Virus record (IMG/VR): IMGVR_UViG_3300050020_000142 | Coordinates: 1-31,993 of that record | Source of the DNA: a virus | DNA: 31,993 bases | Direction: 5' to 3' (one strand) | Part shown: piece by piece, positions 6,480 through 22,669 of the stretch | Numbering within the stretch: position 1 is the stretch's first letter | Layout of the letters: every line of letters starts with the position of its first letter | Notes under the pieces: model-generated | Told to the model about the DNA's origin: nothing | What the model saw: only the letters and a program-made list of their open reading frames with translations | The model's database searches: none | Translations under genes and position numbers: made by a program

Positions 6480-7186
6480 AGGATCATTGGTGTTGCGAAG
6501 GCAGAACCCGATGCTATCGAGTTGGCCGGTTGACAGACTGGCGGAGAGACATAGTGAAGCGGAACCCGGCGAAGCCGGAGAACGTCCAGAATTGGCTGCA
6601 TGATGAAACCAAACATGGAGATGCGCTGCGGGATAGATTCTTGGATTGAGGGATAGCCGAAGACGGCTGGGCCAACCACATACGCCATGAAGTAGCCGAG
6701 CGAGACCGAGGCTGTCGCTTTTCCAATACCCCGTAACTGCATCGAAGGGTAGGAGGAAAGTGACGCGGACGCGACCGCGAGCCCAATAGCGTTGGCCCCC
6801 AGGGGCTTCGCAATAACCATTGCAGCACCCAACGAGATGCCTGTGCCCGTTGCGGGAACTGACACGATAGCCCCGAGGGAAACAGCGGAAGTGGTTATCC
6901 CGAAACCTCCCCCAGAAAAGAGTGGACTCGCCGATTTAATCTGCGCGGACCCCAGAGAAATTCCGATGCCCAGCACCGGGGAGCCCGCCAACGCAGACAG
7001 ATTGACCGAAGCCACCGCAGCACCCATAGTAGTGCCGAGCGGCGAAGAGGCCCCAGCCTGAGAGCCGCGATCAACATCAGCAATACCATTGATCCAGGCG
7101 TTGAAGCTTCCATCAAATCCGGGGATGATTACCGGAATGCCATTGAGCCAGTAATCAAGTGTGTCTCGATTGCGTTGAAGGCTCAT
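6476..7186 (-). CDS. Repeat-rich virion protein with shared LDVL-LRRV motif (236 aa)
   Basis: The N-terminus (LDYWLNGIPVIIPG) is followed by five or six imperfect Gly/Ser/Leu repeats (for example GIGISLGSA, GTGISLGAA, GKATASVSLG) across residues 54-165. This suggests a repetitive beta structure such as a solenoid or fibre shaft. Near the C-terminus, ILDVLRLRRVPLHYVSPPVC (residues 199-218) is almost identical to the N-terminus of the gene at 9824-10615. Start and stop overlap the neighbouring genes through ATGA sequences. The family is not recognised. A structural fibre, decoration or linking role is inferred from its neighbours. Confidence 0.62.
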   Translation of the reverse strand: MSLQRNRDTLDYWLNGIPVIIPGFDGSFNAWINGIADVDRGSQAGASSPLGTTMGAAVASVNLSALAGSPVLGIGISLGSAQIKSASPLFSGGGFGITTSAVSLGAIVSVPATGTGISLGAAMVIAKPLGANAIGLAVASASLSSYPSMQLRGIGKATASVSLGYFMAYVVGPAVFGYPSIQESIPQRISMFGFIMQPILDVLRLRRVPLHYVSPPVCQPANSIASGSAFATPMIL

Positions 7187-8121
7187 ACATCAATGTTGTC
7201 GAAAAAGGCGGTGCTGTAGAAGGTGTCCGTATCATTATTCCAAAGCTCTACCCACAATACCCCCGCCGTGGCAACTGTAACGCTCAGGGAATTGATCTTG
7301 ATCCAGCCCGTCGATGCCCCCGCTAAACCGACCACGTCTGCGGCAAGGCCAAGCGCCGGGTTCGCCTTGACGATCATCGAAGGTCTTTTCCCGGTCACGT
7401 TGGACGCCTGCTTCGCATAACAGGAGATTGTCTGTAATCCTGGTTGGACTTGCCAGCGGAAGCGCCACATGCCCGGATAGTCCAGGGCCAAGCAGGGCGG
7501 TGCGGGATAGCCATCACTCAGTTCTTCGCGCACGCCGGTCTTCAAATGCCGGTCGAAGGTGTCTCCGTGAATTGAGGTCACCCCTCCGAAGGAGACCCCC
7601 TGAAGCGCGCCGACGACGCATTGCCTTCCGATCAAGGAGCGCACTGCGGTTGGTTGCACCACATTGTCCAACACGAGGTCTGCAAAATAGTTATTAGCAT
7701 CTGTGTTGGTAGGAAAAGTGTTAGACCCACCCGCGATGTATCTTGAAAAATTTACGGTCGCCGACAGTGGGTTCCCAAAAACCTGGCCAGCAACCGACCC
7801 CACTCCTATGGTAGAAGCAAAATTTGTTGGGCAGGTATAGGACACCACATATTGGATGCCGGCGCTGATATGATATGGCGAGCCAAAAGCCATATACTGC
7901 CAACCGGACGCGGTTTCCCCAGTGAAAGTTACCTGGGCCAAGTTGGTCCCGGTGATACTCCATAGGGTTCCGATGTGCGTTCCCGTGTTGAGCACCCCCT
8001 TATAGAATCTGACTCCCATTACGTCACCAACGTCCAAACTGGTAAAGACCGCACCGAGGGTATAGGTCCCAGCGTTAGACAAGTTCGTCGGAATAGTCGA
8101 GCCAAACAGGTTATAGCTCAT
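7183..8121 (-). CDS. Virion protein with DUF4082-like domain (312 aa)
   Basis: The N-terminal ~110 residues match the DUF4082 pattern: LFGSTIPTN, then GVRFYKGVLNTGTHIGTLW, then FTGETASGWQYMAF, and GIQYVVSYTCP. In bacteria this domain is found next to glycan-active or adhesin modules and is thought to form a beta-sandwich. The C-terminal ~150 residues are also strand-rich (QPGLQTISCYAKQ, GVLWVELWNNDTD) and end FFDNIDV, resembling another carbohydrate-binding-like sandwich. The start shares one base with the upstream stop (TGATG). It is likely part of the host-attachment apparatus; glycan binding is inferred from the domain type. Confidence 0.72.
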   Translation of the reverse strand: MSYNLFGSTIPTNLSNAGTYTLGAVFTSLDVGDVMGVRFYKGVLNTGTHIGTLWSITGTNLAQVTFTGETASGWQYMAFGSPYHISAGIQYVVSYTCPTNFASTIGVGSVAGQVFGNPLSATVNFSRYIAGGSNTFPTNTDANNYFADLVLDNVVQPTAVRSLIGRQCVVGALQGVSFGGVTSIHGDTFDRHLKTGVREELSDGYPAPPCLALDYPGMWRFRWQVQPGLQTISCYAKQASNVTGKRPSMIVKANPALGLAADVVGLAGASTGWIKINSLSVTVATAGVLWVELWNNDTDTFYSTAFFDNIDV

Positions 8122-9823: not shown

Positions 9824-10615
9824 TTAAGGAGCAGTCCACGTAACCGGATAGTTGGACGGATACGGGTCACTCGTTGCCGGAACAGCTATATACCCGGTAT
9901 CAAAGGCAGGCCCAGAAGGTGAACCTGTGTGTCCAGTAACACGAATCCATCCCCCCAACTCCGTATGATTGCCTGTGAGGTGAACGGTGACCGAATAGCC
10001 CGAAAAAACAGGACTAGGAAGACTAAGAGGAGTGCCTCCCGTTTCAAAAATTGGAGTGCTATTACCCTGATAGTCTGCATCCAAAACGAGACCATAATAC
10101 ACAATTGGCAGTGGAACAACTGTGACCTGACAAACGTCAGTGCAGAGAGCACCCAAAGAATCTGTCGCAGTCACAGTAAAGTTCGTGGTGCCAGCCGTTG
10201 TCGGCGTTCCGGAAATCACTCCAGAAGAACTGAGCGTCAGACCATCTGGCAAGGAATCGGTCGTCGAAAAAGTGCGCGGGCCAGTTCCAAAAGAACAGAC
10301 CAACGTCTGGGAATAAGCCGTCCCAACGGTGCCACCAGAAAGCGAGTCTGAGTTGGTAATGCACCCCGTCGAAGGCGGCGGAGGCGGAGGCGGTGCCGGT
10401 GGCGTCGGTGGCGTCGGTGGGTTGGTTGATACACAGGTCCACAATTGGTTATCCCACACAAACCCCGGGGGACACCAACCACTCTCGTCACCCATATCCA
10501 CCCAAATTGTGCCCGACCCCGAACTACTGGTAATGGCTATCCCTGGGCAGACCGGAGGAGAAATGTAGTCCAACTTGACCCTACGGAGTTTCAATACATC
10601 CAAGACAGCGTTCAC
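9824..10615 (-). CDS. Virion adhesin-like protein with Ig-like (He_PIG) domain and poly-Pro linker (263 aa)
   Basis: The start is GTG at 10615, overlapping the upstream TGA (GTGA). Residues 4-23 ([20 protein letters not shown]) repeat a motif found near the C-terminus of the gene at 6476. A Trp/Cys segment ([16 protein letters not shown]) leads to a Pro/Thr-rich linker at 66-81. Residues ~86-166 form a putative Ig-type He_PIG/cadherin-like repeat ([19 protein letters not shown], then FTVTATDS). The C-terminal ~95 residues are another strand-rich module. The layout of anchor, flexible linker and Ig domain fits a surface-exposed decoration or adhesin. Ig-like domains on phages often bind carbohydrates weakly. 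Confidence 0.74.
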
Positions 10616-12645
10616 GGCATCCCCACTGATGTTATTGGCGGCTGCATGCCGCCCAAGTCATTCTCTGCCATCCGAGTAGCAATCACTACAGCCACCCGAT
10701 CCGCGGCTTCCTGAGAGACTATGCTATCCGCCGTCCCGACGCCGGCTGACTCATAGCCACCCTGCTCAAGCACTTCTGTTTTTACGGACTTGTATTCCGC
10801 GACACACGTTGCGGCAAGGTCCGCCACCACAGCACCGTAGTCCGGGCTACTAACAGAGGCCCCGTCATACCGGACTGCATTGAAACCGGTTTCGTCGTCG
10901 CATGCGATGGCATCACCTGACAAATCTTCCGGCACCAGGAAGGCAAACGGACGAATCCATCGCAAGGTAGCCGGGCCATGACCCACAACCAAAAGCTGAA
11001 AATTCCTGTCGATGTTATCCTGATCCGGCGACTCCGCCCCGCATGATCCCGAGCAGCTATCTGCCGGTTTTTGGTTGGCATCCTCCGTCCGCAGGGTTCG
11101 CGACTGGGCTTTGAAGGCATACACGGTATCTCGCGCACTGATCGACTGGTCATAAGACAAGCTCCCTTTGCTAACAGCAACCATCTTGCTCATTATCTGG
11201 CGAAATGCCCCGCGCGTGCCACCAGCGTAGAACACCCCCAGATTCAAATTCTCCTCCACACCGGCAAAGGCAACATCCACCCAGGAAAGCCGGCAGCGGG
11301 TGCCCGGGTCCTTCAACTGCGTTGAGGCGGTAGCACCAAAGTAACCGCGTGTAAACAGTCCCCAAGTTATCGGGCACCGATTGTCCAACCGATCTGGAAT
11401 GAATGCCTCCCACAAACGATTTTTTCCATCGAAATCGACCGAGACGTGAAAAATTCTCTCGGTGTTCGCGACCTGCCCATACATCCACTCCACCGGGCGC
11501 GTGCCTATCCAATACCCCGACCACGAGGGGCCAGAATCGTCAGCCAGTGTGGTCAGGCTGGCGTGGTTCAGGACCCAAGTGTGCCGGTTGTATGTGTCTT
11601 CAGCGGGCACAGACATCATCAGCCACTGTCCGTAAATCCCGGCGGCAACCTGCGACAGGTCATCACTCAGGACAGCTTTACTCACCAGCATTTCGTTGTC
11701 CCGAATAGGAAGCCGCGTGGTGATCTTCCCGCTTAGCGCCGGGTCATAAAAAGCAATCCCCGTGGGAGAAAACCACACCAAGCGCCCGTAGTGGGAAACA
11801 CAGGACTTCGAGCACAGGCAGCCCACACCGATCACTTCCTCCTGGAAGTTTGGCGTCGTGGTCCACTGGCTTCTGTCTCTGATGTTGGCCTGGAGGATGG
11901 ACCCGTTGACATCAGTGAACACCATCAACTGCGGTGACTCGGTGGACGGTGTCACGACCATCGCTGTGACTCCGGAGCGGAAGAAAAACGAAACCTGGCC
12001 GCCAAGGTAGCCCACTTCGCGGAAGCTGAAGGGGTTGGAAATATCACTGGCCAGAACCTGATGATCGTGCGCCACCCAGAGCCGATCACCCACCCAGGCC
12101 ATATCTCCACCGGCTGGGGTCCCATATGCATCCCCGGAAACATGCCCGGAATTTGCCCCGTCATACCACGCAGGTGCGGTAAGGCCACCATCTTGCGCAA
12201 ACATTACGGCCTTCGGGGTGATCACCTTTATCGCTGGGGCCGGCCCAACCCCGGGAGAAACCCCGTCTGACGCAATCCGCTCTGCGGACTGCGTGGCTTG
12301 AATCCAAAAGACTTGCCGCGCGTAGGGGGAAAGCTGGACGTTGGGAAGCACGTTGAAGTTGATAAAGGGCCAGTCCGCAACATAGACCTTCCCATCAATT
12401 GCCACGACCGCCTGTTCCAGGCCGTTGTTTGGCCGGAAGATAAAGCCGCCCTGGAGGTTTCCATCCGGGAGTGTCAAGACACAGCGGTAACCCGGGCGGC
12501 AACTGATTGTCCCCCCGACATTTAGGACGTTGACTCCACACCAGTAATATCCGAGTGGTATCTGTCCCGGGTCCTGATCAGACTTCATCCCGGAGAAGAA
12601 AACTCCGTCCTGATCCACAATGCGGACTGACGGGCTAGGCGGCAC
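10612..12645 (-). CDS. Large propeller-like tail protein, tail tubular B/stabilisation type (677 aa)
   Basis: The start is GTG at 12645 with a GGGAGG ribosome binding site located inside the last codons of the HNH gene. The 677-residue sequence has repeated strand pairs with aromatic turns (for example [18 protein letters not shown], then [20 protein letters not shown], then [19 protein letters not shown]), the pattern of a beta-propeller such as the tail tubular/nozzle proteins of podoviruses. It contains unusual Cys clusters (CLCSKSC, CSGSCG). The C-terminal ~100 residues are helical and Ala-rich. It follows the adaptor-like gene in the order seen for podovirus tail gp11/gp12 pairs. The assignment rests on size, strand pattern and gene order, not on a specific motif. 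Confidence 0.66.
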
Positions 12646-13288
12646 GGACGCCTCCCTTGCGGATGTTGTCCAACGCCCACAGAGGTTGCAGATTCTGGTG
12701 GTTAAAACACACCCGCTGTTGTCCTGGATCAGTCAAATCAAAAGCCGAACAGGGCTTTATGTGGTCCACATGCCACTTTCCGTAGTTCTCCCAAGACATC
12801 CCTGGCAGAAACAGTTTCTCAAGGTGTGCGATCAACTCCGCTGCCGAGCACCCGACAAGCTCCTGGGTCGAAGCACTCTTTTTAGAGATGCCCCGAACCG
12901 CGTCCCAAACTCGTTTTCTCAAACACCGACCCACTCGCCAACTAGGATCAGCAGCCTGTTTTTTGGCGCGCCAGACCTTCAATCTCGCATTTAGCTGTTC
13001 CCGGTGCTCTTGCGCCCACTTCTTAGAATAAGCAATGTTTTTCCCCGGATTTGTATAGTAGATTTTTCGGGCGGACCGCCGGGCAGATTCTAGGTATCTT
13101 TCCCGGTTCTCCTGACGCCAGACAGCGCACTGTCTGCGGCGCTTTTCTAACCTCTCCGGGTGCCGCTGAAGGTATCTCTTATTTCTGGCGTTAGCGGCGG
13201 CACGCTTTTTCAAAAGCTCGAACCAGCACCAGGCAAAAAACAGAGTTAATTTTTTCTTATCCACAGCATTAGCGAATGTCGTAGTCAT
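12635..13288 (-). CDS. HNH homing-type endonuclease (217 aa)
   Basis: The C-terminal domain has the HNH core WHVDHIKPCSAF (residues 172-183) and FNHQNLQPLWALDNIRKG (195-212), with the catalytic His in the DH pair and the NHxN element intact. The N-terminal ~110 residues are a very basic helix rich in Arg/Lys/Tyr with a loose repeat (RYLQRHPERLEKR, RERYLESARR), probably DNA binding. The start overlaps the end of the upstream structural gene by 20 bases and its stop lies 11 bases inside the next gene, so it is wedged between two tail genes. It is a free-standing homing endonuclease rather than a virion component. No intron sequence is seen around it. Confidence 0.86.
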   Translation of the reverse strand: MTTTFANAVDKKKLTLFFAWCWFELLKKRAAANARNKRYLQRHPERLEKRRRQCAVWRQENRERYLESARRSARKIYYTNPGKNIAYSKKWAQEHREQLNARLKVWRAKKQAADPSWRVGRCLRKRVWDAVRGISKKSASTQELVGCSAAELIAHLEKLFLPGMSWENYGKWHVDHIKPCSAFDLTDPGQQRVCFNHQNLQPLWALDNIRKGGVRAA

Positions 13289-14276
13289 CTTTCGCGCGCG
13301 GGTTGCTCTGATCGAGCACCTGGATAGGATGATAAACGGGGGGCTCTGCGGCCTGCTGGCTCTCCAATTCCATCCGCGCCGAATCTGCCTCTAGGGTATG
13401 GGCCTCGGCAAGCTGGTTGTCACTATACATTTTGCGCGCTTGCAGCGCAATCAGTAAAGCGATCCGGCTGCGCAGCGGGACATGATCAAAGCGCGAGGTG
13501 AAAGTGGGGTTGGTCCTGCGGAATGCAATCCGCGCCCAATTGCACGAGCGGTTGAGTTGAATGCGACGGTATTGTGGGAGCGTTTCATCCGGTTCCATGA
13601 CCGTGAGAAGGGTGCCCGTCGCACCAGACGCATCGACAGTCGATAACTGAACACTCCCAACCGTGGGCTCCTTGTAAAGACCCGTAATCCGGGCAATATC
13701 GGGCGCGCCAACATCAGGAATTGCAGCCCCGTAGATCGTGGGGACCTGGTAGCCGTTGATCCATGCGCCTGAGCTATCCTGCCGGCGAAGGACATTGCCC
13801 CCGGCATCAAAACCATAGACCAGGACCTGCTTTCCGTTGTCAGCGGGTGTCTGGAGATGCGCCACCAATTTTGACGGTTCCACCAACTCCCGGTAGGTGC
13901 AATGGAACTTGCCCTGATCTGCCCATCGCCATTCACAAATAGTCCGGCAATCCCCCGGGCCGTTCAGGTGAAATGAAAACAACTGGCTCACGCCCAGCGC
14001 CGGCTGGCCGCCGATGTTCACCGCGATCACTGTGTCCACTTCCCGCGGGAGGGCAATGCAGCGCCGCCCGCAGCCCGCCGGATTATTACAGATGGTGCCT
14101 TCATTGCAACTTCTGCAACCTTGTGTGCAGATGTCAAGGAAACCCTTCCAGCCCTCAAGGTCCTCCTTGTTGGCTATCAGCGACACGGAGTCGCCCAACC
14201 AAGTGAAGAGCTTCTGGTCATCACAAACCCCAATGATCTTGCGGGCTTCCTGGTATATGTCATCAACCCTGAAAAT
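13269..14276 (-). CDS. Conserved phage tail/adaptor-like structural protein, probable ATT start (335 aa)
   Basis: The frame stays open and protein-like upstream of the first usual start (TTG at 14198). The 26 extra codons read VDDIYQEARKIIGVCDDQ and then KLFTWL, and they run back to an ATT at 14276 placed 4 bases after a strong GAGGAGG ribosome binding site. No ATG, GTG or TTG lies between. I therefore propose an ATT start, giving 335 residues. An N-terminal helical domain (to ~46) is followed by a Cys-rich segment (CTQGCRSCNEGTICNNPAGC, 50-69), then CIALPREVDTVIAVNIGGQP and a beta-rich middle. The helical C-terminus (ALLIALQARKMYSDNQ) resembles adaptor proteins. Position before the propeller-like gene suggests a head-tail adaptor or tail tubular A-like role. 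Confidence 0.72.
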   Translation of the reverse strand: MFRVDDIYQEARKIIGVCDDQKLFTWLGDSVSLIANKEDLEGWKGFLDICTQGCRSCNEGTICNNPAGCGRRCIALPREVDTVIAVNIGGQPALGVSQLFSFHLNGPGDCRTICEWRWADQGKFHCTYRELVEPSKLVAHLQTPADNGKQVLVYGFDAGGNVLRRQDSSGAWINGYQVPTIYGAAIPDVGAPDIARITGLYKEPTVGSVQLSTVDASGATGTLLTVMEPDETLPQYRRIQLNRSCNWARIAFRRTNPTFTSRFDHVPLRSRIALLIALQARKMYSDNQLAEAHTLEADSARMELESQQAAEPPVYHPIQVLDQSNPRAKDDYDIR

Positions 14277-14290
14277 AACGCCTCCTCTTA

Positions 14291-19639: not shown

Positions 19640-20089
19640 TTAACTTCCTCTATCTTCCAGATAAAGAGCAGCCCGCAGGCACCGCTCAGGATCATTCTTG
19701 AGAAACCCCAAAGCCGCGTTACAACGATTGCACAACAACCCGCGAACCTCTCCCGTTCGATGGCTATGGTCAACAGCCAAGGCCATCCCCGACGTGTTAG
19801 TCTCCCCACACACCGCACACACTCCGCCTTGAGCGCGCGACATATCCCGGTATTGTACCTCAGTGATTCCGTAGCCTTTTAGCTTTTTTCTGGTGTATTG
19901 TGCCGACATCTTCTCCGGGTTTCTTTGTCTCCACCGCATCGTGGACTGACGAACTATCTCCGGGTGATCCTTCCTATATCGCAAATTTCTTTGTCGTTCA
20001 CACGACTTACAGGACGAACGGAGCCTCCCCCCGGTGCTCCAGAATTCAGCAATCCCCTTAGTCACCCCGCACAGAGAACAGGTCTTCAT
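19640..20089 (-). CDS. HNH endonuclease, recombination endonuclease VII type (149 aa)
   Basis: The C-terminal core matches the endonuclease VII family: CAVCGE (C91/C94), LAVDHSHRTGEVRGLLCNRC with the catalytic Asp-His and a second CxxC pair, and NAALG after it. An N-terminal Cys pair set (CSLC, CKSC) may form another zinc knuckle. A basic linker (RYRKDHPEIVRQSTMRWRQR) separates them, and resembles the basic repeat of the HNH protein at 12635. I use the ATG at 20089, which overlaps the gmd stop (ATGA); an ATG at 20095 adds two residues. In T4 this family resolves branched DNA, but stand-alone copies like this one often act as homing endonucleases. Here it sits within a sugar cassette. Confidence 0.88.
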   Translation of the reverse strand: MKTCSLCGVTKGIAEFWSTGGRLRSSCKSCERQRNLRYRKDHPEIVRQSTMRWRQRNPEKMSAQYTRKKLKGYGITEVQYRDMSRAQGGVCAVCGETNTSGMALAVDHSHRTGEVRGLLCNRCNAALGFLKNDPERCLRAALYLEDRGS

Positions 20090-21027
20090 AACCATGCGTC
20101 CACCATCATCCGCGCCAACTCAGCCATAGTCACCTGGGACTCCCAGCCCAGCACCCGTTTTACTTTACTGGGGTCTCCTAACAAATGCTCCACTTCCGTC
20201 GGTCGAAATAACGACGGATCAGACCGGACATGCTTTTCAATGCTTAGGTTCACACACCCAAAAGCCTCCTCCAAAAACTCCCGGACTGAGTATGCCCTCC
20301 CTGTGGCGACCACGAAGTCATCGGATGCCGGTTGCTGGAGCATCATCCACATCGCCTTTACAAAATCCTTGGCATGCCCCCAGTCCCGCCTCGCTTCTAG
20401 GTTGCCCAGATACAAAAACTCCTGCTGACCTCGTGCGATCATCGCGGCTGCCTTGGCAATCTTCTGCGTCACAAAGTTCTCTCCGCGGCGCGGGCTCTCG
20501 TGGTTGAACAGGATTCCGTTGCTCGCGTGCATCCCGTAAGCCTCCCGGTAATTCACCGTGGCATAGTAAGAGAATGCTTTCGCGCAGCCATACGGGCTCC
20601 GGGGATGAAAGGGGGTGGTCTCATTCTGCGGCGGCGGAGAGCTTCCAAACATTTCGCTTGAAGACGCCTGATAAAAATGTATGGGCTGCCCGGTCTTGCG
20701 AATTGCCTCCAAAATCCGAATTGTCCCCGCGCCGGTCACTTCCCCCGAATACACGGGCACCTTGAAGCTGATACCCACGTCACTCATGGCCGCGAGATTA
20801 TACACCTCATCCGGCTTCGCCAAGTCAATTGCAGCGGCTATTGAAGCGCTATCCGAGAGGTCTCCTTGGTGAAGCGTGATCTTGTCGAGGATGCTGTGTA
20901 AACGGACCGTGTTGTCTGTGCTAGACCGGCGGATAACACCATGCACCTCGTAGCCCTTCTCCAAGAGAAGCTCCGCTAAATATGAGCCGTCTTGGCCCGA
21001 GGCTCCAAAAATCAATGCGCGTGACAT
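20086..21027 (-). CDS. gmd: GDP-mannose 4,6-dehydratase
   Basis: This enzyme converts GDP-D-mannose to GDP-4-keto-6-deoxy-mannose, the first step to GDP-L-fucose. The sequence shows the NAD(P)-binding GASGQDG (8-14), the conserved RRSST stretch, NLAAMSDVGISF, the SSSE catalytic segment (residues 122-125), the Tyr-x-x-x-Lys pair Y146/K150 in SPYGCAK, and FNHESPRRGENFVTQKI (174-190). At 313 residues it is shorter than E. coli Gmd (373) but all catalytic elements are present, so it is probably active. It overlaps the end of fcl by 16 bases and its stop overlaps the HNH start. The order fcl then gmd is the reverse of the common gmd-fcl arrangement. Confidence 0.95.
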   Translation of the reverse strand: MSRALIFGASGQDGSYLAELLLEKGYEVHGVIRRSSTDNTVRLHSILDKITLHQGDLSDSASIAAAIDLAKPDEVYNLAAMSDVGISFKVPVYSGEVTGAGTIRILEAIRKTGQPIHFYQASSSEMFGSSPPPQNETTPFHPRSPYGCAKAFSYYATVNYREAYGMHASNGILFNHESPRRGENFVTQKIAKAAAMIARGQQEFLYLGNLEARRDWGHAKDFVKAMWMMLQQPASDDFVVATGRAYSVREFLEEAFGCVNLSIEKHVRSDPSLFRPTEVEHLLGDPSKVKRVLGWESQVTMAELARMMVDAWL

Positions 21028-21950
21028 AGATGCAAACGGAAATCCTGATAAGCAAGCTGGAGCCCTTGCTCAAGCGTTATTTTCGGACGCCACCCCAACC
21101 AGAAAATCTTCGAGCTATCCAGCCTCCTTTCCGGAGTGCCATCCGGTTTGGTGATGTCCCACTCAATAGGGCCAGAATGCCCGGCCACTTTAACCACCAT
21201 CGCCGCGAGGTCTCTGAGTGCAACCAACTCCCCGCTTCCAATGTTGACCAGCCCGAGGTATTCCGAGCAATCCATCAGAAGGATACACGCCACCGCGAGG
21301 TCATCCGCAAACAGAAACTCCCGCGTTGGCTTTCCCGTTCCCCAAAAGGTCACGCCGGGCAACAAACCCAGAACTCGCTCGTGAACCCGCCGGATCATAC
21401 CCGGAATTACATGCGAATTCTGCGGGTCGTAGCTGTCCCCCAGCCCGTAGAGGTTCGTGGGCATCACGCTGATGAAGTTGCACCCATATTCCTTACGATA
21501 CGCTTCACAAAGCTTGATTCCGGCAATTTTTGCCAAAGCGTAGCACTCATTCGAGGGCTCAAGCGCTCCGGTCAAAAGGTATTCCTCAAAAATAGGATTT
21601 TGAGCGAGTTTTGGGTAGGCGCACGCGCTGCCGAGGAACAAAAGCTTCTTGACGCCATAGTTTTTCGCGTTTTCGAGGACATTCATCTCAATCCGCATGT
21701 TGTCAAGCATGAATTCTACCGGTTTCGTCGAATTGGCGACAATTCCGCCGACTTTGGCCGCGCAGTGGAAGACATACTCCGGCTGATAGCTACTAAAGGC
21801 CCATCTTACCACCACCGGATTGGTCAAATCAACCTTCTCGTGGCTCCAAGTGATCAAATTGTCGTATCCGCTCGCCTTGAGGGCGCGGCAGACTGCGCTT
21901 CCCGCCAAACCTCGGTGCCCAGTGACCAAAATTCGAGAATCCTTGTTCAT
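21012..21950 (-). CDS. fcl: GDP-L-fucose synthase (GDP-4-keto-6-deoxymannose epimerase/reductase)
   Basis: This enzyme epimerises and reduces the Gmd product to GDP-L-fucose using NADPH. With the ATG at 21950 (overlapping the upstream TGA) it has 312 residues, close to the usual ~320. Visible motifs are the cofactor loop GHRGLAG (11-17), HCAAKVGGI (82-90), the active-site GSACAYP (107-113, Ser107 as in E. coli), the Tyr137/Lys141 pair in NECYALAKIAG, MPTNLYGLGDSYDPQNSHVI, and TREFLFADDLA. All key residues are in place. It lies between a glycosyltransferase and gmd. Together the two enzymes make a full pathway from host GDP-mannose. Confidence 0.95.
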   Translation of the reverse strand: MNKDSRILVTGHRGLAGSAVCRALKASGYDNLITWSHEKVDLTNPVVVRWAFSSYQPEYVFHCAAKVGGIVANSTKPVEFMLDNMRIEMNVLENAKNYGVKKLLFLGSACAYPKLAQNPIFEEYLLTGALEPSNECYALAKIAGIKLCEAYRKEYGCNFISVMPTNLYGLGDSYDPQNSHVIPGMIRRVHERVLGLLPGVTFWGTGKPTREFLFADDLAVACILLMDCSEYLGLVNIGSGELVALRDLAAMVVKVAGHSGPIEWDITKPDGTPERRLDSSKIFWLGWRPKITLEQGLQLAYQDFRLHLCHAH

Positions 21951-22669
21951 ACCGCGAACCGCTTTCGCCCATACTGGATCAAGGAGGTATCCTTTACCCC
22001 ATGAACCCAAATCCAGTCATTGTCAATCATCTTCTGATACCATTCTTCGGAAAAAGTGGGCGTATTGTAGATGCTTTTCATCCCGGGGACATCCGCCCAG
22101 CCCCGCCTCTTAAATTCCTGCGCGAGATAGAAATCCCAGCCGCAATTCGGAATGATCCCCCCAACTCTTCGGGCAATCCACGTCAAAAAATTCAGGTCTC
22201 CTGTGATCAGCGCGTTGCCATTGATGTGCGGACCCGGCTCCACAAGCGCCCCGGCTATCACTACCGGACTTTTTTGGTTGACTCGATCCCATTCAGAGGA
22301 CATTCGAGATAGCCAATCCCGCTGAATAGGGCATCCGTCAGCCTCGCAAGTGAAAACAGCCTTGTAGGCCGGAATTTTCCGAGCCGCAATCATCGACTGC
22401 ACCCACTCCATTGTTGAAAACCAGAGCCCGTTGCAGCCGTTAGGCCAGCCCGTCTCCCGGCGACGGCTCTTCATTGTGTAAACATTGAACTTTCGAGCCA
22501 CAAGCTGAACTGAGGGATCATCAAGGCTGCTGTCGAAGCGGCACACGAATAAAAAATCAGCGATTGGCGACTTGGTCGGCTCTAAATCCGCAAGGAAGTG
22601 GGCCAAGGCTAGCGCGCGGGTCCGGTCCCCCTCCCAATACTGGAGTGCAATCAGCAACCGGTTAGTCAT
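21947..22669 (-). CDS. Glycosyltransferase-like protein of the sugar cassette (240 aa)
   Basis: I choose the ATG at 22669 because it overlaps the upstream TGA (ATGA) and has a GGAAAGGG ribosome binding site. The N-terminus (NRLLIALQYWEGDRTRALA) begins like a nucleotide-sugar transferase. AYKAVFTCEADGCPI (101-115) gives an EAD motif at 109-111 that probably replaces the DxD metal site of GT-A enzymes. Later GWDFYLAQEFKRRGW and WIWVHGVKDTSL fit an acceptor domain and a final His. It differs from the other two transferases in the cassette, so each probably adds a different sugar or recognises a different acceptor. The substrate is unknown. Confidence 0.7.
   Translation of the reverse strand: MTNRLLIALQYWEGDRTRALALAHFLADLEPTKSPIADFLFVCRFDSSLDDPSVQLVARKFNVYTMKSRRRETGWPNGCNGLWFSTMEWVQSMIAARKIPAYKAVFTCEADGCPIQRDWLSRMSSEWDRVNQKSPVVIAGALVEPGPHINGNALITGDLNFLTWIARRVGGIIPNCGWDFYLAQEFKRRGWADVPGMKSIYNTPTFSEEWYQKMIDNDWIWVHGVKDTSLIQYGRKRFAV

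Follow-up and report, generated by a model that had tools for sequence, protein, structure and literature searches.

The adaptor-like gene on the minus strand of the window, as we call the whole 31,993-nucleotide stretch of viral DNA that was analysed (IMG/VR record IMGVR_UViG_3300050020_000142), very probably starts with the codon ATT. The 14 nucleotides in front of this codon, which hold the Shine-Dalgarno (SD) sequence GAGGAGG, are best read as the scar of an HNH endonuclease gene that was inserted at this junction and lost again, an origin to which we give a probability of about 0.6. The positions of the features are collected in Table 1.

Table 1. Features of the window at both ends of the adaptor-like gene, with the evidence for each.
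Feature	Position	Strand	Evidence
Adaptor-like gene, ATT start to TAA stop	13269..14276	−	Open frame, 37-row alignment, modelled fold that matches head-to-tail adaptor chains of podophages
Probable ATT start codon	14274..14276	−	Homologue column comparison
Shine-Dalgarno GAGGAGG, 4 nt (CGTT) 5' of ATT	14281..14287	−	Anti-SD pairing, −12.0 kcal/mol
Intergenic 14 nt TAAGAGGAGGCGTT, proposed scar left by the 3' end of a former HNH gene	14277..14290	−	Comparison with L059, L268, L269 and L356; inferred for the window
Upstream gene, 127 aa	14291..14674	−	Stop abuts/overlaps adaptor start (TAATG) in most relatives
Putative HNH/endonuclease VII-type gene	12635..13288	−	PHROG 1035, E=1.6e-10
GTG start of next gene, read from HNH 3' end	12643..12645	−	ATG in relatives without HNH
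Shine-Dalgarno GGGAGG within HNH C-terminal codons (KGG)	12651..12656	−	−11.3 kcal/mol
Next gene, 677 aa, virion structural protein (MPPSPS... family)	10612..12645	−	PHROG 3287, E=1.4e-4

The start site of the adaptor-like gene

On the minus strand the region around the start reads ...GCTAATAAGAGGAGGCGTTATTTTCAGGGTTGATGAC..., and the stop codon of the upstream gene is the TAA at 14293-14291. The adaptor frame opens after the TGA at 14300-14298 with the codons CCG CTA ATA AGA GGA GGC GTT ATT TTC AGG and contains neither ATG, GTG nor TTG down to the TTG at 14198, which is the first standard in-frame start and lies 26 codons below the ATT. The original prediction had described this frame and had placed the ATT at 14274-14276, four bases past GAGGAGG; coordinates and spacing are both correct. 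Translated from the ATT to the TAA, the product reads fMet-FRVDDIYQEARKIIG...YDIR. Pairs of an SD and an ATT are also found by chance within other open reading frames of the window, and therefore such a pair alone is little proof of a start. When the window was scanned for other ATT starts, no further gene appeared to require one, and the RNA fold at the start region shows nothing unusual (z −0.13). An out-of-frame ATG at 14263 was considered as start and rejected, as its frame ends after about 27 codons.

The start position was compared in homologues (numbered with L) that were confirmed by tblastn, derive from viral contigs and one genome contig, and were reduced to 88 distinct genes. In the column of the ATT, three codons 5' of a conserved V(D/E)D(I/V), ATG, GTG or TTG is present in 81 of the 88 genes, ATT in five (the window, L006, L043, L048 and L059) and ATC in one (L268), and the remaining homologue (L240) has an ATG one codon upstream. 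Residue 2 is almost always F, as it is in the window, the encoded N-terminus is conserved, and no homologue lacks the upstream residues. The alignment thus bears out both the assignment of ATT as start and the reality of the 26 residues upstream of the TTG. Compared with ten relatives, the stretch from ATT to TTG differs 48, 29 and 150 times at codon positions 1, 2 and 3, respectively, which indicates that it evolves as coding sequence. Judged from these sequence comparisons, ATT 14276 can be assigned as the adaptor start codon with high confidence. The open reading frame listing of the window shortens the protein by 26 residues.

The product matches no Pfam family (E≤0.01) and no PHROG family (E≤0.001). 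An AlphaFold2 model was built from 37 family members, and when this model (pLDDT 72.6) was compared with 979 chains, the top 8 were podophage tail/adaptor chains with Z-scores of 6.9-9.3 and an rmsd of 5-7 Å, followed by the next chain at 4.8. The matched adaptors are those of SU10 (7z47), Pa223 (9nwi), KHP30 (7wmp), GP4 (8jov), N4 (9lc0), VP1 (8zkk) and DEV (9bgm). With Foldseek alone the E-values were weak, and the highest probabilities again went to these podophage proteins. The fold match spans residues 1-312 with the alignment starting at residue 1, and the model has a helix at residues 2-12; the N-terminal helices lie within the matched fold, so that losing the first 26 residues is not expected to be neutral. 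A podophage head-to-tail adaptor is our best guess for this product, and the predicted fold agrees with the earlier view of a structural gene. The predicted fold resembles that of these adaptors, but with about 330 aa and extra insertions the product differs from their 195-243 aa, and there is no family match at the sequence level.

Two readings would do away with the ATT start. Metagenome assemblies do contain single-base errors, and the original prediction had asked for a check for a sequencing error near 14276; no error was seen. The ATT is identical in L001, a second assembly from another metagenome with 8 mismatches and 0 gaps over 8,946 bases, which makes an error unlikely, and ATT is also present in L006, L043, L048 and L059, so that a misread or misassembled ATG is scarcely conceivable. 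Translation from TTG 14198, which would leave the 26 codons above it untranslated, has in its favour that TTG is a standard start and in frame. We nevertheless regard it as very improbable, since a usable SD is absent before this TTG, and the upstream residues are conserved, show coding-type evolution and supply the opening helices of the predicted fold.

Several side observations concern the family and the surroundings of the gene. No adaptor homologue was found in phage records. The only homologue from the bacterial/archaeal genome collection (L195, 44% identity) comes from a Candidatus Peribacteraceae MAG, where it lies on a contig of 26.5 kb; this could hint at the host, or the contig could be phage DNA that was binned wrongly. 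Close to the adaptor gene a podophage GP4 fibre-I (gp80) domain is encoded. The product of 7183-8121 has a DUF4082 domain (E 5e-31), and its gene is a neighbour of those for a He_PIG Ig-like protein and a GP4 gp80-like fibre protein, in what is presumably the tail/receptor-binding region.

Start codons and endonuclease genes at the 5' junction

Most relatives resemble the described cases of translational coupling by stop/start overlap (TAATG; PMC6728339), whereas the window has a 14-nt gap with an SD instead. Changes to ATT or ATC number at least six on the best tree and at least four on supported branches, and these codons occur only where the stop/start overlap is broken, either by an endonuclease gene or by a gap of 14-15 nt with a strong SD. 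The 54 clusters in which the start abuts the upstream stop comprise 43 with ATG, 9 with GTG and 2 with TTG, and ATT/ATC in none (0/54), while the 15 that have either an endonuclease gene upstream or a gap of 10 nt or more comprise ATG 5, GTG 3, TTG 2, ATT 4 and ATC 1. The difference in ATT/ATC (5/15 versus 0/54 clusters; Fisher p=2.7e-4) and in non-ATG starts (p 0.0012) refers to endonuclease and gap classes that were partly assigned by hand, with the 10-nt cut set post hoc and four loci of unclear context excluded. Phylogenetically independent pairs agree in 4/4 cases (p=0.125) and are too few for significance alone. In addition, SDs are stronger at ATT/ATC loci than at ATG loci (p 0.0015), with the strongest, −11 to −12 kcal/mol, at ATT loci.

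In L059 and L268 an HNH open reading frame runs across the adaptor start codon, and its K-G codons are the SD. The HNH gene of L059 ends with CAG AAA GGA GCT ACT TAT TTT CAG (QKGATYFQ) and has the ATT inside, that of L268 with AAA GGA GCC GCT TAT CTT (K-G-A-A-Y-L, of KGAAYLH) and has the ATC inside. In both loci the start codon is composed of the AT of the Tyr codon TAT and the base that follows this codon. By the same overlap TAT GTT yields an ATG start in L036 and L045, and the HNH ends of L263 and L356 go with GTG and TTG starts, respectively. In a wider sample of HNH junctions the overlapped starts were mostly ATG; thus the overlap permits ATT, but does not cause or dictate it.

At L269 an intact HNH gene is absent, and a 52-nt gap directly before the GTG start encodes YQPLFALDNLRKGARV, an HNH C-terminus. 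This remnant shows that an HNH gene can vanish while its 3' end persists as the start signal. In the window the gap and the first two codons, TAAGAGGAGGCGTT-ATTTTC, resemble the HNH end of L356, TAAGGGAGGGCGAT-TTGTTC. Read in the frame of the HNH gene, the loci with ATT give GGLYF (L006), RGGIYF (L043), WGGIYF (L048) and KRRRYF (window), with the Tyr codon kept. As 14 nt barely exceeds an SD, the similarity of the window to HNH ends could reflect function alone. By sequence motifs, L271 has an endonuclease VII-type and L272 a NUMOD3-like open reading frame at the adaptor 5' junction, and the presence of two endonuclease types suggests an insertion hot spot.

Other sources of the start signal were considered. 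The motif GGAGGN..TTATTTTC in L003, L004, L021 and L022 was rejected as a start, as it encodes QGGFIFR within the next gene, and copying from this motif was abandoned because its bases are variable in other relatives. A broad DNA pattern scan for the start motif gave mostly unrelated contigs, and a tighter one the known loci together with unrelated ones. Between L048 and L044 the identity falls just upstream of the start and is nearly complete downstream; this pattern fits mosaic exchange but is unspecific, and a co-conversion tract was not adopted. A separate observation concerns L059, in which the adaptor gene has an in-frame TGA (972-974 of the locus) at an invariant Gly position (G152). 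On one contig a nonsense mutation, an error and recoding are indistinguishable from the sequence; an alternative code was rejected, as only a single site on this contig would be affected and the gene itself ends with TGA.

Proposed origin of the ATT start

We propose that the adaptor gene originally started with ATG, sometimes GTG or TTG, abutting or overlapping the stop of the upstream gene, and that HNH endonuclease genes were inserted repeatedly and exactly at this junction. The C-terminal HNH codons N-x-x-K-G-x-x-Y would serve also as the ribosome-binding site of the adaptor gene (AAR GGN), and the adaptor start would lie in another frame within the final HNH codons, where TAT and the next base can give ATG, ATT or ATC. 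On loss of the HNH gene its 3' end would stay in place, because it would by then be the sole start signal of the adaptor gene. In the window GAGGAGG would position the initiator tRNA on the AUU, and the protein would begin with fMet-FRVDDIYQEA. With the stop/start overlap lost, simple reinitiation has probably given way to initiation at the adaptor's own SD and a weak codon, and a lower expression from ATT is possible.

For the window the scar is a probable origin of the 14 nucleotides with GAGGAGG and the ATT. These are the only intergenic bases left and they are mostly SD, which makes an HNH origin unprovable from the stretch itself. Several findings speak against a scar: the stretch lacks one base relative to the HNH register, the recognisable 52-nt scar of L269 has GTG and not ATT, L036 and L045 retain ATG despite the HNH overlap, and of the two key HNH cases one, L059, is the locus with the in-frame TGA. 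The wider proposal, that HNH endonucleases carry in their conserved C-terminal codons a portable start for the downstream gene and that, as they insert and decay, they give essential phage genes new start codons, among them AUU and AUC, which are otherwise hardly ever reached from AUG, we consider about evenly balanced.

A real ATT start could also have arisen without any endonuclease: an ordinary short insertion would first have created a strong SD, and a point mutation would then have turned ATG into ATT, with the SD making up for the weak codon. Non-AUG starts are linked with stronger SDs (Belinky et al., 2017, PMC5622118), which suits the SDs of the ATT loci, and the window has no HNH gene at the adaptor 5' junction now. 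In the same study, however, AUU had replaced AUG in a single case out of 61,358 ancestral AUG starts of prokaryotes, against the at least four to six ATT/ATC changes in the adaptor family, and these changes are all at broken junctions, two of them with an HNH overlap. We hold this course to be unlikely, but worth keeping in view. Another possibility is that the weak ATT was selected for a low, tuned adaptor level, perhaps with IF3 sensing as in infC; the original prediction had suggested a low but tuned level by analogy with self-regulated genes such as infC. Few adaptor copies are needed per virion. AUU and AUA starts with extended SDs are functional in S. aureus and reduce expression (PMC13009471). 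Yet the close relatives L041 (ATG) and L048 (ATT) encode an almost identical protein, and the use of ATG in the nearly identical L041 and L044 speaks against ATT being strictly required. Furthermore, the product is adaptor-like and not IF3 or another translation factor, the RNA structure at the start is unremarkable, and the relatives suggest another cause; the infC-like part of the prediction is not upheld, and selection for a tuned level is improbable.

Known AUU/AUA-initiated bacterial genes (E. coli infC; S. aureus cvfC1, ccpN and infC; PMC13009471) have a near-cognate AUN codon and a strong, close SD, as in the window. The adaptor-like gene differs in being a presumed phage structural gene and not a regulator, and in its family ATT/ATC arose several times and maps to endonuclease junctions. 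The family is a testable set of natural AUU/AUC starts outside infC. Free-standing HNH and endonuclease VII homing endonucleases of phages (T4 seg/mob) lie between essential genes and vary in presence, as here, and T4 endonuclease genes are known to hold promoters of downstream genes (PMC2988022) and homing endonuclease genes to cluster near structural genes (PMC10448857). Here HNH C-terminal codons hold the ribosome-binding site and start of the downstream gene, and the passages of these two papers covered by the search mention neither this nor a change of start codon. In the literature searched, which includes few subscription journals, we found no earlier AUU start in phages and no report of endonuclease C-termini that supply the ribosome-binding site and start codon of a neighbour. 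Although AUG to AUU is reported to be almost absent in prokaryotes, this one phage gene family has several AUU switches as well as AUC, GTG and TTG at one spot. If endonuclease insertion and loss is the driver, mobile genes reshape the translation signals of essential neighbours, break translational coupling and leave behind starts that escape gene finders.

The junction behind the adaptor-like gene

At the 3' end of the adaptor gene the window has a putative HNH homing endonuclease gene, which has no Pfam match at E≤0.01. It starts within the last adaptor codons and ends within the start of the next gene, with overlaps of 20 nt and 11 nt, respectively. The window shares an HNH gene at this place with L006, L020, L025, L027 and L031, and it is absent in L021, L023, L024 and L069. 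The pattern of the 5' junction recurs here. Across the relatives non-ATG starts were found at 7 of 15 junctions with an HNH insert or scar versus 1 of 25 without (p=0.0022), and the SD energies separate fully, at −6.0 or stronger with the insert versus −5.7 or weaker without it. L028 retains a 21-nt scar at this junction and has a TTG start. The same KG..Y-to-ATG overlap with the following start is seen for related HNH genes of two cultured phages, MPK9 and elemoA.

Elsewhere in the window, at 20086-22010, there are two adjacent NAD-dependent sugar epimerase/dehydratase genes (Pfam matches GDP_Man_Dehyd and Epimerase), perhaps for glycan modification. A gene at 30523-31215 matches PHROG integrase and DNA invertase families, which could point to tail-fibre switching or a temperate lifestyle.
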